DNA from: Gynuella sunshinyii YC6258
Lineage (GTDB): Bacteria > Pseudomonadota > Gammaproteobacteria > Pseudomonadales > Natronospirillaceae
DNA: 64,000 nt
Direction: 5' to 3'
Assembly (NCBI RefSeq): GCF_000940805.1
Contig: NZ_CP007142.1
Span: 534,593-598,592 of the forward strand
In this document: positions 13,550 through 18,025 of the stretch, one piece after another
How the letters are laid out: each line of letters starts with the position of its first letter
Position numbering within the stretch: the first letter of the stretch is position 1
Made by a program: the position numbers and the translations under genes
Notes under the pieces: model-generated
Seen by the model: the letters and a program-made list of their open reading frames with translations, nothing else
Told to the model about the DNA's origin: nothing
Database searches by the model: none

Positions 13550-13578
13550 GAGTCCGGCAATATTTGATTGCCGGACTC
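13550..13578. terminator. Strong hairpin between convergent map and ECF41 sigma genes
   Basis: Eleven-bp perfect inverted repeat GAGTCCGGCAA / TTGCCGGACTC with a 7-nt loop, 23 bp after the map stop and 23 bp before the end of the convergent sigma gene. No clear T-run on either side, so termination is probable but not certain. Confidence 0.5.
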
Positions 13579-13601: not shown

Positions 13602-14486
13602 CTAATGAAGTGATGCTCTATTCTGTACGGCAGATAACTTATCGGGATTACGAACGATGAATATCCGGTTGATCTGACCCTGTTCATTAACTCCAAAAGT
13701 TACGGTATTAATAATATTTCCCTGATGCTTCATTAAAATCCCTTTGGCGCCATTTATCGGCACGTACTGCCACTGTAGCTGTTGCCACCAGCCCTGCCGT
13801 TGTATTGCGCCGAAAAATTCCAATACTCTTTGACGCCCGGACAATACCCGTAACGCAGCCAGAACCTTGCCACCACCATCTGATGTCAATTGCACATCTT
13901 CTGCCAGTAACCGGGTAAAATGCTCCAGCTGCTGACCATTCATCGCCTGATGAAACGCTTCAAGCAGTATTTGCTGCCGTTCAGGAGGCATTTGGTAACG
14001 GTTGTTGTCCTGACCGATAGCAGCATTGGCTCTGGAAACCAGTTTTCGACAGGTGCTTTCACTGGTTGCCAGGATGACAGCAATATCTGTGTAGGAATGG
14101 TTAAACACTTCCTTTAACAAATATGCGGCACGCTGTTTTGGAGTCAATCGTTCCAGCAACAACAAAAACGCCATGGATAACGAGGAAGCCAGAGTAACTT
14201 CCTCCTCGATGGTATGTTCTTCAGCCGTATGAATGGGCTCAGGTAACCAGGGGCCAACATAGTCAACTCTGCTGTTATGAGGTGCTTTTAATATATCCAT
14301 ACAGATCCGGCTGCATACAGTTGTCAGCCAGGCGACAGGATTTTCAATATGGTTAACATCCTCACGACACCAGCGGATAAAAGTATCCTGTACTGCATCT
14401 TCCGAATCGGCATACGACCCCAGCATACGATACGCAAGCCCTTTCAGACGGTTGCGATGCTGCTCAAACAATTGACCTTTATCCAT
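13602..14486 (-). CDS. ECF41-type RNA polymerase sigma factor with SnoaL-like C-terminal domain
   Basis: 294 residues: sigma-2 (about 5-70) and sigma-4 (about 105-155) regions followed by a long SnoaL/NTF2-like domain (about 165-290). The three motifs that define group ECF41 are all present: WLPEP (80-84), DGGGK (203-207) and NPDKL (280-284). ECF41 factors have no anti-sigma factor; the fused C-terminal domain controls activity. As is typical, the neighbour (1 bp upstream, same strand) encodes a carboxymuconolactone-decarboxylase-like protein. The promoter at 14989-15015 matches the ECF41 consensus, so the pair is probably autoregulated. Confidence 0.9.
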   Translation of the reverse strand: MDKGQLFEQHRNRLKGLAYRMLGSYADSEDAVQDTFIRWCREDVNHIENPVAWLTTVCSRICMDILKAPHNSRVDYVGPWLPEPIHTAEEHTIEEEVTLASSLSMAFLLLLERLTPKQRAAYLLKEVFNHSYTDIAVILATSESTCRKLVSRANAAIGQDNNRYQMPPERQQILLEAFHQAMNGQQLEHFTRLLAEDVQLTSDGGGKVLAALRVLSGRQRVLEFFGAIQRQGWWQQLQWQYVPINGAKGILMKHQGNIINTVTFGVNEQGQINRIFIVRNPDKLSAVQNRASLH

Positions 14487-14487
14487 A

Positions 14488-14931
14488 TCAGTGTCCCGAT
14501 ATCTGCATACGGTTCCAGAAGTTAATCATTCCGATCACGGCACTGTAAGCACAGATTTCCTGGTCAGAATAGTGATTTCTCAAGGTTTCGCGCAAAGCAG
14601 AGTAATCCGTATCCTGCCGAATGGTTGTCAGAGCTTCAACCCACGCCAGTAGCGCTTTCTCCGCCTCGCTAAAGTCAGCAGTCTGATCCCAGACCATCAA
14701 ATGATCGAGACGTTGATTACTCTCGCCGTCTTTTCTGGCTTCCCGGCTATGCATGCCGACACAAAAACCGCAGCGATTGATCTGCGACGCTCTAAGTACC
14801 GCCAGATGGCGCAGCGGCGTATCCTGAATGTGATTATCAATAACCTGCTGTAGTTCGACCATCCGGGCGACAATATCAGCAATTTCAGTATGATAGTGCA
14901 AAGGGCGGGAGAGGTTTGACTGATCGTTCAT
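14488..14931 (-). CDS. Carboxymuconolactone decarboxylase/AhpD-like protein (ECF41 partner)
   Basis: 147 residues. AhpD-type helical domain with the redox motif INRCGFCVGMHSREARKDGE: Cys54-x-x-Cys57 and His61, as in peroxidatic AhpD relatives. The family reduces peroxides through the cysteine pair. Proteins of this class are the commonest genomic partner and regulatory target of ECF41 sigma factors. It is first in the two-gene operon, directly behind the ECF41-type promoter. The actual substrate and the signal sensed by the sigma factor are unknown. Confidence 0.85.
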   Translation of the reverse strand: MNDQSNLSRPLHYHTEIADIVARMVELQQVIDNHIQDTPLRHLAVLRASQINRCGFCVGMHSREARKDGESNQRLDHLMVWDQTADFSEAEKALLAWVEALTTIRQDTDYSALRETLRNHYSDQEICAYSAVIGMINFWNRMQISGH

Positions 14932-14988
14932 ATTCGATTTCCTGTAAAGGCCACATCATTCGATGTGATGGGTTAGTTACCCGAACAT

Positions 14989-15015
14989 GACGAAATGGAA
15001 CGTCTGATTGTGACA
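14989..15015 (-). promoter_or_regulatory. ECF41-dependent promoter
   Basis: In minus-strand sense: TGTCACA (15015-15009), exactly 16 bp, then CGTC (14992-14989). This is the published ECF41 -35/-10 motif with its expected spacing, 58 bp upstream of the partner gene's ATG. It implies the sigma factor drives its own operon. Confidence 0.8.
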
Positions 15016-15046: not shown

Positions 15047-15610
15047 TTACCTTCCGCGTCTGGACTTGCTAATAACGACGCTCAACCAGGCTGCGACGGC
15101 TCCGGCCAATGCACCGAACAGATGTGCTTCAAACGATACTGAAGGATTATTTGGTAAGACTCCGTAGATCATCCCGCCGTATAAAAACACCACAATCAGG
15201 GCAATGATGATATTGACGAAGCTACGGTTAAATAACGCCAGCATGATACTCAGACTCCATAGACCAAATATCCAGCCACTGGCACCAATGTGAACTGCAG
15301 GGCGACCAAATAACCAGACCAATAAACCGCTGGCGGTAATAATAAAAAAGCTGCTCCACAAATACAGCTTGACACCTCGCAGTATGCACAACGTACTGAA
15401 AATGATAAAACCGATCAGATTGTTACTGAGATGTTGAAAACTGCCATGTAAAAACGGCATGAGATAGATATTTGGAAGACTGTCGAGCACCCGTGGTTCG
15501 ACACCGTATTTTAACAATCGAAACCCGGTGGATGCATTGGCAAAATACATGACCGTCATAATAATCACCGGCCATAATATAATCTTGAAACAAAGCCAGA
15601 ACTTTTTCAC
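15047..15610 (-). CDS. Rhomboid-family intramembrane serine protease
   Basis: 187 residues with six predicted membrane helices. The catalytic dyad is visible: Ser111 in GASGWIFG and His163 in FEAHLFGALAGA. The family HxxxN element is also visible (His60-L-S-N-N64 after FLHGSFQ). Rhomboids cut single-pass membrane proteins within the bilayer. It is shorter than GlpG and lacks its cytosolic N-terminal domain, as in the rhombosortase-like or minimal rhomboids. No GlyGly-CTERM substrate was seen in the window. A single gene; the 247 bp upstream contain nested inverted repeats. Confidence 0.8.
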   Translation of the reverse strand: MKKFWLCFKIILWPVIIMTVMYFANASTGFRLLKYGVEPRVLDSLPNIYLMPFLHGSFQHLSNNLIGFIIFSTLCILRGVKLYLWSSFFIITASGLLVWLFGRPAVHIGASGWIFGLWSLSIMLALFNRSFVNIIIALIVVFLYGGMIYGVLPNNPSVSFEAHLFGALAGAVAAWLSVVISKSRRGR

Positions 15611-15857: not shown

Positions 15858-16532
15858 TTATTCGTATTTATAACCGGCACCATAAACAGACCGGACAAAT
15901 TCTCGACTATCATCGAGTGCCTGAATTTTCTTTCTTAACTTTTTAATATGGCTGTCAATGGTACGATCACTGACAATGCGGTTATCCTGATACATCAAAT
16001 TCATTAGCTGATCTCTGGAGAGGATCTTCCCTGCTTTCTGCTTCAATGCGTTCAACAATTGAAATTCCACCGATGTCAGTTCAATTATTCGATCACGATA
16101 TTTTACACAGTTGGTCTGATCCAGCAGAGTGAGATCATCCACATTCTCAGTATCCTGATTATTCCGGTTAAGCCGATAGCGTCTTAATACAGCCTTCACT
16201 CTGGCGACCAGTTCTCTTGGACTAAATGGTTTACACAGATAATCATCTGCTCCTAGTTCCAACCCCAAAAGACGGTCTATCTCATCGACCCTTGCGGTTG
16301 CCATGATAATTCCCATGTTGTCATCTTTTCTTCTGATTTCACGACATATTTCCATGCCATCGAGCCCTGGCAGCATAATATCCAACACGATCAGATCGGC
16401 GGTATTGGTCTGCAGCCATTCTGCCACCTCATCCCCTCGATGCAACAGCGACACTTCATAACCAGACTGAATCAGATAATCCCGTTCGATTTCCGCCAAT
16501 TTAACTTCATCTTCAACAATGAGAATATTCAT
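15858..16532 (-). CDS. OmpR-family response regulator (BaeR-like)
   Basis: 224 residues from ATG 16532, which overlaps the kinase stop by 4 bases (ATGA). A longer in-frame start at 16565 would overlap the kinase by 37 bp and is less likely. Receiver domain with acidic pair Glu7-Asp8, phospho-acceptor Asp51 (VLDIMLPG) and the Lys in LCKPFSPREL, then a winged-helix DNA-binding domain (about 130-222, TSVEFQLLNAL...DRTIDSHIKKLRKKI). Transcription factor of a two-component system; the overall look is closest to BaeR/CpxR-type envelope-stress regulators. Confidence 0.9.
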   Translation of the reverse strand: MNILIVEDEVKLAEIERDYLIQSGYEVSLLHRGDEVAEWLQTNTADLIVLDIMLPGLDGMEICREIRRKDDNMGIIMATARVDEIDRLLGLELGADDYLCKPFSPRELVARVKAVLRRYRLNRNNQDTENVDDLTLLDQTNCVKYRDRIIELTSVEFQLLNALKQKAGKILSRDQLMNLMYQDNRIVSDRTIDSHIKKLRKKIQALDDSREFVRSVYGAGYKYE

Positions 16533-18025
16533 AATCCGTACTCCGGAAACTGAATCTGTATCCAAAGGCCACCATATTCCGAATGTCTGGCCATAATTTT
16601 ACCATTGTGGGCTTCTACAATATTTTTTACCAAGGACAACCCCAGCCCACTGCCACCCGTTGCCCTATTCCGTGAGGAGTCGACACGGTATAAACGATCA
16701 AAAATATGCGTCAGAGACGCTTCTGGAACACCGGGCTTAGAGTCCATCCAGTCAATCACAACGAAGTGCTCCTGCTTGCTGACCCTGACCAGCAAAGTAC
16801 CAGGGCAATCGGTATATTTATTGGTATTGCTGACCAGATTGCGAACCAGCTGTGACAATCTTCGTTCATCGCCGTTAATCTCATAATGAGCAGCTTGAGA
16901 TTGAAGTTCAAGGGAAATACGAATGCCATTCGCTACGGTTTCCAGATTTGCCTCCAGAACACCCACCATATTGCAACGCTGCATATTATAGGTAAGAGCC
17001 CCGACGTCAGACATTGATAACTCATGAAGATCATTAATCAAAAATGACAGTCGTATGATCTCTTCGTTCAGGGAAATCAGCGACGCTTCATCAACTTTAC
17101 GCACTCCATCAATCATTGCTTCCAATTCAGCCTGTAATAATGCAATTGGTGTACGCAATTCATGAGAAATGTCAGCGACCCATTTTTGTCTGGCATTGAG
17201 ATTTTGACTGAGTGTTTTTGCAAGCCGATTAAAATCCCTCGCCAGGTGGCCTAATTCATCGTTACGGTCGGTATTCAGGGATACATCGAATCGACCATCA
17301 GCCAGTGTACGAGTCGCTTTTTGGATATTTTCAATTGGTTTTAACAATCGATTTGCAAACGGTACCGCAAACAGAAAGGACACTAACCCTGCAGCCAACA
17401 GAATCCAGATAGTCTGGGCATTTCGTTGTTTGATAAACAGCAAATCCATATCATCACTGATGGTGTTGCGTTGAATAGCACCAAGATATCCCATGACCTG
17501 GTCATCATCCCTAATCGGTAACCAGATAATCTTACTGCCATCATCGGGTAACTGCCCATGTAGTATGTGTTTGTTAGAATCCGTCAGTATCAGGCGTCGG
17601 AACAACTCCGGCGGTGGCATGGGTTTGTCGGGTAGAACTCCTGGATCAAAGGGCGGTTCATAATCAAAATACCTCGGCCCTGGTGGTTTTTCATTTTCAG
17701 GTCGAAAGTTTCTTTCACGATCGTTAAAGGCAAGGGAAGAACGTACAAAGTTTTTCCAGATATCATCGGACACTATCAGTCCGTTCCAATCCCCGTCCCT
17801 CAGAAAATGTTCTCTTAAATTTGTGATGACGGGAGACAGGTGTCTGTTCTCAATGCGATTCAGGTAACTCAAAAAGCTATGATTCAGCGACCACCAGTTT
17901 GCCAGTAGAAAAGCACCAGCTAATACCAGATTAGCTGCCAAAATGGTCAAAAAAACTTTCTTGCGAATACCAACTCTCATGATCGGACGAAAAAAACTCG
18001 ATTTTACTCTGTTAGCATATGGCAT
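16529..18025 (-). CDS. Sensor histidine kinase (BaeS-like)
   Basis: 498 residues from ATG 18025; ATG 17980 would remove 15 residues and begin MRVGIRKKVF just before the first membrane helix. Two membrane helices (about 22-44 and 204-224) flank a periplasmic domain of about 160 residues with an unusual Pro-rich acidic stretch (about 108-140). HAMP (about 225-278), HisKA with His288 (DISHELRTP), and HATPase (NLVSNTNKYT; GGSGLGLSLVK) follow. It phosphorylates the response regulator translated from the overlapping downstream start. The 255 bp upstream have no gene. Confidence 0.9.
   Translation of the reverse strand: MPYANRVKSSFFRPIMRVGIRKKVFLTILAANLVLAGAFLLANWWSLNHSFLSYLNRIENRHLSPVITNLREHFLRDGDWNGLIVSDDIWKNFVRSSLAFNDRERNFRPENEKPPGPRYFDYEPPFDPGVLPDKPMPPPELFRRLILTDSNKHILHGQLPDDGSKIIWLPIRDDDQVMGYLGAIQRNTISDDMDLLFIKQRNAQTIWILLAAGLVSFLFAVPFANRLLKPIENIQKATRTLADGRFDVSLNTDRNDELGHLARDFNRLAKTLSQNLNARQKWVADISHELRTPIALLQAELEAMIDGVRKVDEASLISLNEEIIRLSFLINDLHELSMSDVGALTYNMQRCNMVGVLEANLETVANGIRISLELQSQAAHYEINGDERRLSQLVRNLVSNTNKYTDCPGTLLVRVSKQEHFVVIDWMDSKPGVPEASLTHIFDRLYRVDSSRNRATGGSGLGLSLVKNIVEAHNGKIMARHSEYGGLWIQIQFPEYGL

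Follow-up and report, generated by a model that had tools for sequence, protein, structure and literature searches.

A two-gene ECF41 sigma factor locus lies on the minus strand of the 64,000-nucleotide (nt) stretch of Gynuella sunshinyii YC6258 analysed here (contig NZ_CP007142.1, positions 534,593 to 598,592; hereafter the window). Read 5′ to 3′, the locus consists of TGTCACA, 16 nt, CGTC, a leader of 57 nt, an open reading frame (ORF) of 147 amino acids (aa), a single base and an ORF of 294 aa. The first ORF encodes a partner protein with a CMD domain and the second encodes the sigma factor (Table 1). The first-pass annotation of this DNA had described a complete ECF41 module, and the sigma factor, the partner and a probable cognate promoter were all found where it had placed them. 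Since every testable defining feature of the family was found, the assignment as an ECF41 module with a probable cognate promoter is supported. As a member of a known family the locus is well formed and ordinary, and we consider it a self-activating ECF41 stress operon with a probability of about 0.87.

Table 1 Features of the ECF41 locus in the window, and loci of related genomes discussed in the text.
Feature	Position or loci	Strand	Remarks
ECF41-type promoter TGTCACA-N16-CGTC	14989..15015	-	-35 at 15015..15009, -10 at 14992..14989; exact match
Leader, -10 to start codon	14932..14988	-	contains a 6-bp hairpin at 14952-14967
Partner gene (COE), CMD/AhpD-like, 147 aa	14488..14931	-	PF02627, E = 1.6e-16; TIGR00778 above cut-off
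ECF41 sigma factor, 294 aa	13602..14486	-	start 1 base past the partner stop codon
WLPEP, sigma2-sigma4 linker, residues 80-84	14235..14249	-	exact
DGGGK, C-terminal domain, residues 203-207	13866..13880	-	exact
NPDKL, near the C-terminus, residues 280-284	13635..13649	-	exact
C-terminal NTF2/SnoaL-like domain, about residues 165-285	13632..13994	-	AlphaFold2 model and structure matches
Perfect 12-bp inverted repeat, 5-nt loop	13550..13578	.	between the convergent sigma and methionine aminopeptidase genes
Candidate promoters before DUF2165 membrane protein (PF09933)	L169, L180, L183, L202, L209, L216, L244		CGTC ends 50-53 nt before ATG
Candidate promoters before RidA-type protein (PF01042)	L171, L182, L199, L210, L222, L223		CGTC ends 98-112 nt before likely ATG
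Clade loci	L010-L012, L031-L041, L123-L125		partner before sigma in most

The sigma factor has the domain content of an ECF-type protein, with Sigma70_r2 (PF04542) and Sigma70_r4_2 (PF08281) above their cut-offs, and scores 291.7 bits against the NCBIfam model NF007214 (SigJ; cut-off 271). It is the sole match at E ≤ 0.001 in its own single-contig genome of 6.476 Mb. ECF41 factors are defined by a WLPEP motif in the linker and a C-terminal extension that spans about 100 aa and holds three conserved motifs (PMC3426412). The extension of the window protein measures about 130 aa. Besides WLPEP, the first-pass annotation listed two motifs of the extension under names of its own (DGGGK and NPDKL), and all three are present without a mismatch. 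Among 21 aligned proteins, DGGG is invariant, as are the N, P and K of NPDKL; DGGG is absent from L041, a member of the clade described below, and from L075. The best sequence match among known structures is SigJ of Mycobacterium tuberculosis (5xe7; E = 4.1e-38), which is also the first Foldseek match of the whole predicted model (E = 2.2e-14). SigJ shares the sigma2-WLPEP-sigma4-SnoaL layout but differs by Q at position 148 and by DSNGK in place of DGGGK.

The partner carries the pattern C54-x-x-C57-x3-H61 within its CMD domain. It scores 46.7 against the AhpD core model TIGR00778 (cut-off 27.8) and falls below the cut-off of the peroxidase-related model TIGR01926. Its match to PA0269 (2o4d) has an E-value of 3.5e-27; PA0269 (2o4d, 2ijc) and Atu0492 (2gmy) share the CMD domain and CxxC-x3-His with it over 116-136 aligned query residues. 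We take Glu118 and His132, catalytic in M. tuberculosis AhpD, to lie 12 residues before and two residues after the first Cys, respectively. The partner has neither of these: His42 sits 12 residues before its first Cys and Phe56 two after C54. Therefore, we call the protein AhpD-like only and do not claim peroxidase activity for it. The label of a classic AhpD-like partner holds for the CMD domain and for CxxC-x3-His, but not for the glutamate position. Atu0492 has His at this position like the window partner, while PA0269 has Glu.

The promoter motif had been reported upstream in the right orientation, and this was borne out. Allowing 14-18 nt between TGTCACA and CGTC, the motif has a single match in the window against an expectation of 0.12 (12 of 100 shuffled sequences had one); this match is exact, correctly oriented and separated by 57 nt from the start codon of the partner gene. 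According to the available part of PMC3426412, paired ECF41 loci most often have the partner ahead of sigma, and in 97 of the 107 loci so arranged the promoter stands upstream of the partner gene; a linked CMD, oxidoreductase or epimerase gene is frequent in the family, not universal. The same layout with one TGTCACA-N16-CGTC promoter is found in SMb20029-rpoE9 of Sinorhizobium meliloti. The transcription start of this operon has been mapped, and the partner is the only RpoE9 target found in the available parts of PMC6180224 and PMC3616915. From its position 9 nt past the motif (PMC3616915), transcription of the window operon would be expected to start near 14980. RpoE9 differs from the window sigma factor in having 35% identity to it, Q148, no W234, a Glu-type partner and a position outside the clade. 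The ydfG/ecf41Bli locus of Bacillus licheniformis and RSP_0606-0607 of Rhodobacter sphaeroides resemble the window, by their description in PMC3426412, in the CMD partner, the motif and the C-terminal extension; the -10 of the B. licheniformis promoter is TGTT, and that of the window is CGTC. Only 2 of 200 shuffled sequences fold as well as the stretch 14925-14982 (58 nt), which includes the leader hairpin (z = -2.8).

Related loci point in the same direction. We assembled 103 loci including the window (102 distinct, as L015 and L071 are identical), 10 of them with less than 1500 nt of upstream sequence. The scan for relatives required WLPEP and was cut to the 80 best of more than 590 matches, so WLPEP is conserved in those 80 by construction. 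Within 1500 nt upstream on the sense strand, NGTCAC[AG]-N15-17-CGTC occurs in 88 of the 103 loci, as opposed to three for the opposite strand and four for the reversed pattern. The spacer is 16 nt long in 85 of 89 sites, with 15-17 nt allowed. Counted backwards from CGTC in the 85 N16 sites, the sixth spacer base is C in 58, the fifth is T in 53 and the last is T in 50. In the window these three bases are C, C and T, and the mapped S. meliloti promoter has CT at the sixth and fifth, like the majority. In the available text of PMC3426412 the promoter is described by two motifs and the spacer length; the base preferences look as if a third recognition element were present in the spacer.

These counts also bear on the idea that the operon is read mostly from upstream or from a sigma-70 promoter, with the ECF41 motif minor or unused. 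The rhomboid ORF upstream on the same strand ends 31 nt before the -35 with no terminator called between them on the minus strand, and one weak sigma-70-like site (9/12) lies inside the rhomboid gene at 15294..15267. No sigma-70-like site, however, was called on the minus strand downstream of the rhomboid gene and ahead of the partner gene, and many related loci carry the ECF41 motif upstream. We regard this alternative as highly improbable.

A wider regulon in the window genome was considered and rejected. TGTCACA-N15-17-CGTC occurs at seven sites, compared with nine for the reversed control, and the operon's own site is the only well-placed one apart from one doubtful case, L006. The spacer of L006 is 17 nt long; a stop-to-stop frame of 354 codons has its first ATG about 115 nt further on, and an opposite-strand frame overlaps the site in part. 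Judged by mechanical frames, not annotated genes, L004, L005, L007 and L008 lie inside long ORFs on either strand and L003 overlaps the first codons of an ORF.

ECF41 factors activate the promoter before the partner gene, and their C-terminal extension both restrains activity and is required for it: partial truncation raises activity and full deletion abolishes it (PMC3426412). The window itself contains the genes, the motifs, the promoter sequence, the gene order and the predicted fold on which the following scheme builds. The SnoaL-like domain would dock on the WLPEP linker through surfaces formed by DGGGK and NPDKL and hold the sigma factor in a poorly active state. A small molecule or a modification, probably a product of reactive-compound stress, may alter the docking contact, and the freed sigma factor would steer RNA polymerase to TGTCACA-N16-CGTC. 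A single mRNA would supply the thiol enzyme and more sigma factor in a positive feedback, its two frames probably being translationally coupled. The enzyme would then clear the compound through its CxxC, and the switch would close.

The SnoaL-like C-terminal domain proposed by the first-pass annotation is upheld by predicted structure, not by sequence alone. In the AlphaFold2 model (mean pLDDT 81.5, pTM 0.48), residues 165-285 align with ketosteroid isomerase and SnoaL-like chains with Z of about 11-12 and a root-mean-square deviation (rmsd) of about 3-4 Å. The top Z (12.9, residues 103-289) belongs to SigG1 of Streptomyces (7qh5), an ECF56 protein with a SnoaL_2 domain according to the abstract of its paper; an ECF56 identity of the window protein was rejected because its motifs are those of ECF41. 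Several results weigh against the self-activating reading. Pfam SnoaL_2 matches the protein with E = 0.0025 and 18.8 bits, below the cut-off of 27, so that the fold is one predicted by the model; at a lenient E of 10 the family matches 16 of the 21 aligned proteins, including that of the window. Linker residues 72-88, the site of the proposed docking, have a pLDDT below 50; with this low confidence and an overlay on 5xe7 at an rmsd above 12 Å, the structure search is silent on a closed state. The protein scores 300.9 against TIGR02957 (SigX4), whose cut-off is 323.25, and is not placed in that family. Finally, the whole-genome scan covered the TGTCACA form only, and clade relatives also use CGTCACA and GGTCACA.

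Relatives of the sigma factor are patchily spread within the family, order and class. They were found in 2 of 22 genomes of the family at E ≤ 1e-20, its own included. A stricter E ≤ 1e-30 gave 13 positive genomes among the 244 sampled from the order, and nine among 369 from the class. The order includes the gammaproteobacterium 45_16_T64, since L015 (same order) and L071 have the same sequence. Among the best 80 of the more than 590 matches, the closest named relatives come from Ensifer and Sinorhizobium (52-53%), followed by Pigmentiphaga and Luteimonas (50-51%), with two metagenome-assembled genomes between them. In a quick maximum-likelihood tree of 101 sigma proteins, the window protein grouped with 15 others from alpha-, beta- and gammaproteobacteria (SH-aLRT 100). 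This mixture of proteobacterial classes suggests horizontal transfer. The window sigma factor belongs to a distinct ECF41 clade, and the two characterised members compared, RpoE9 and SigJ, lie outside it. L021 (partial match) and L018 were kept outside the tree. The sigma gene of L018, from a genome of the window's order, has one in-frame TGA and is possibly a decayed copy.

Six residues mark the clade: C58, K117, Y122, K148, Q171 and W234. They occur in 12 to 15 of 15 clade members versus 0-24% of the rest, and W234 in 13 of 15 versus none; L075, on a long branch, was counted in neither group and was left out of the -35 counts below. In 12 of the 13 clade loci that have a partner, the partner residue 12 positions before the first Cys of CxxC is His, and in the other it is Ala; the 38 partners outside the clade have Glu in 23 cases, Asp in seven, His in three, Gln in two and Asn, Trp and Leu in one each. 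Among loci fetched later, L123, L124 and L125 carry all six markers, with His, His and Thr at this position; L126 and L127 (S. meliloti RpoE9) carry none and have Asp and Glu. The window shares its His-type partner with most of its clade (two of three among the later loci), but differs from most of it in the first -35 base. This base is C in 12, T in five and G in one of 18 clade loci, so that 13 of them depart from the T of the window; outside the clade it is T in 63 of 74 sites. Ten of 15 clade loci escaped a strict TGTCAC pattern; each of them has CGTCACA or GGTCACA instead, and in L038 GGTC replaces CGTC at the -10. K148 was considered as the reader of the first -35 base and rejected: it is present in 15 of 15 clade members, yet the -35 of their promoters may begin with T, C or G. 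Loci outside the clade combine T with either Q or K, so a rule for residue 148 amounts at most to a loosened preference.

Two clade loci, L033 (Ensifer sp. LC163) and L034 (Pigmentiphaga kullae), have the promoter directly before the sigma gene with no partner between. The sigma start lies on the apparent first codons of the partner in L033, and L034 retains a short piece of the partner's end. Neither genome has a clade-type partner elsewhere: the best paralogs show 42% and 32%, versus 51-52% in two relatives. We extended the comparison to 16 genomes, one per species, of the LC163 genus. Every one has an open sigma gene with WLPEP, DGGG and NP-K and retains CGTCACA-N16-CGTC. Nine species keep the partner (143 aligned residues); seven (L128-L134) have none or only a remnant, such as 35 aligned residues in L129 and pieces visible by eye in L130. 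In a FastTree phylogeny of sigma codons the seven form one group with support 1.000, from which we infer the timing of the loss. For the sigma gene, the median pairwise omega (NG86) was 0.077 over the 21 pairs of the seven species (median dS 0.32), 0.055 over the 36 pairs of the nine partner-keepers and 0.109 over the 63 pairs that cross the groups, the pairs not being independent of one another. Between groups, omega is 0.170 for the SnoaL part versus 0.056 for sigma2-4. The low omega among the partner-less species indicates that the sigma gene appears to be kept by purifying selection without its partner. A gene for an MFS transporter (PF07690) follows sigma in all 16 Ensifer loci and in L031, L032, L035 and L124. 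In L075 (Paracoccus marinus), a 99-aa ABM-family protein (PF03992; 3663-3962) lies between promoter and sigma, another partner exchange.

The partner could instead be a thiol-redox regulator of the sigma factor, as an anti-sigma factor or co-sensor, and not the enzyme to be made. The operon is tight, with its genes separated by one base, CxxC could report redox state, and no other candidate regulator adjoins: no anti-sigma gene was found next to sigma, whose neighbours encode methionine aminopeptidase and the rhomboid protein. However, YdfG had no effect on Ecf41Bli activity (PMC3426412, data not shown there), and the seven of 16 Ensifer species that lost the partner while keeping sigma and promoter indicate that the sigma factor manages without it. 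That the enzyme has been lost in nature speaks for a role as effector rather than sensor, and we regard a regulatory partner as very unlikely.

In the seven partner-less genomes, YGTCACA-N16-CGTC occurs at 78 sites versus 23 for the reversed control. The contexts of all 78 were examined by mechanical frames. Sites lie before the clade sigma gene in seven of seven genomes, before the RpoE9-type partner in seven of seven, and before a third ECF41 sigma gene, with WLPEP, DGGGK and NPEKL, in three. Two further clusters, before the DUF2165 and RidA-type genes (Table 1), look like promoters. The DUF2165 site is present in seven of seven genomes, six found by pattern and the seventh (G983; TGTCACG) by orthology. 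The RidA site is present in six of six genomes examined (G978 being outside), four found by pattern and two (G620 and G983; CGTCACG) by orthology; the RidA-type protein itself falls below the NCBIfam Rid cut-offs. Because the pattern itself fixes the core bases in 10 of the 13 sites, core invariance there proves nothing. The three sites found by orthology are independent cases, and all read GTCACG-N16-CGTC at the corresponding place. In each set 3 of 16 spacer positions are invariant, while the 40 nt downstream hold 20 (DUF2165) and 11 (RidA) invariant bases and the 40 nt upstream hold seven and three. Other recurring sites were set aside: one in seven of seven genomes and one in six, both in long opposite-strand frames, and pairs restricted to two genomes, located 29 nt before an ORF (L175/L206) or inside a longer frame (L164/L184).

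The DUF2165 and RidA promoters might also be read by other ECF41 factors of the same Ensifer genomes. This is made less likely by the first -35 base, which is C in 12 of the 13 sites and in 16 of 16 clade-sigma promoters, and T in the RpoE9-type (seven of seven) and third-sigma (three of three) promoters of the same genomes. At E ≤ 1e-12, no DUF2165 gene was found in the nine partner-keeping Ensifer genomes. Eight of these have RidA relatives of about 50% identity or less, with no motif found within 300 nt, and the ninth has no RidA at this threshold. Frames are broken in 3 of the 13 cases, DUF2165 in L169 (G620) and L180 (G978) and RidA in L210 (G989), through either decay or draft error. In the gammaproteobacterium L011, which is of the same order as the window, sigma is directly followed by the first half of a RidA-like gene whose second half is on contig C25 of that genome; the gene was perhaps split by an insertion.

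The adjacent enzyme is thus probably not the only purpose of the clade. The stronger proposal is that the clade sigma mainly serves distant targets, with the adjacent enzyme as an exchangeable effector. The selected sigma gene of the partner-less lineage, the promoters before DUF2165 and RidA (three of them recognized by orthology rather than by pattern) and the MFS gene after sigma speak for it. The broken frames (two of seven for DUF2165, one of six for RidA) do not, nor does the window genome, which has no DUF2165 or RidA ortholog at E ≤ 1e-12 and one well-placed TGTCACA site; moreover, the extra targets were seen in a single genus, and other ECF41 factors share those genomes. We find this proposal doubtful. 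A further one is that the window sigma factor belongs to an ECF41 subtype with an exchangeable thiol enzyme, in which one Ensifer lineage lost the enzyme and kept, under selection, the sigma factor and CGTCACA-N16-CGTC, with a promoter of the same type driving DUF2165 and RidA and an MFS transporter downstream. We propose this tentatively, the broken frames having lowered our estimate from even odds to slightly below.

According to the available part of PMC3426412, and of PMC6180224 for RpoE9, the neighbouring enzyme or operon is the only detectable ECF41 target. RpoE10 of A. brasilense, an ECF41 factor, is reported to control lateral flagella (cited in PMC12826043 and PMC8999054), which means that an ECF41 influence reaching past the partner has, in principle, a precedent. 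Our literature search, for which subscription journals were mostly outside scope, found no paper joining any two of ECF41, RidA and DUF2165. The window alone carries little weight as one more tidy example of a large family, and the comparison of its relatives weighs more. The enzyme-less sister lineage, with a selected sigma factor and its promoter before two other genes, amounts to a natural knock-out experiment, and the DUF2165, RidA and MFS transporter products could narrow down the ECF41 signal. Should the subtype be real, its signal would be a reactive small molecule that a CxxC enzyme, RidA or export can deal with, and ECF41 regulons would extend past the neighbouring gene. The lineage data come from one genus and include three broken target frames. 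The first-pass annotation had called the locus a clean case to study, which is fair, though similar assays exist for B. licheniformis, R. sphaeroides and S. meliloti. Rapid amplification of 5′ cDNA ends (5′-RACE), promoter-lacZ fusions and C-terminal truncation have been reported for the first two (PMC3426412); no point mutations of the -35 or -10 motif appear in the available text of PMC3426412, PMC6180224 and PMC3616915.

The locus is flanked by a convergent gene for a type I methionine aminopeptidase and, upstream, by the co-directional gene for the rhomboid-family protein. The inverted repeat at 13550-13578 has a z of -5.9 as RNA and was not called as an intrinsic terminator; it is a possible end of the operon, perhaps common to both convergent transcripts. 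Further upstream of the rhomboid gene on the same strand (15858-18025), a response regulator gene, whose product has BaeR as its best NCBIfam match (below cut-off), overlaps a gene for a HAMP-HisKA-HATPase sensor kinase.

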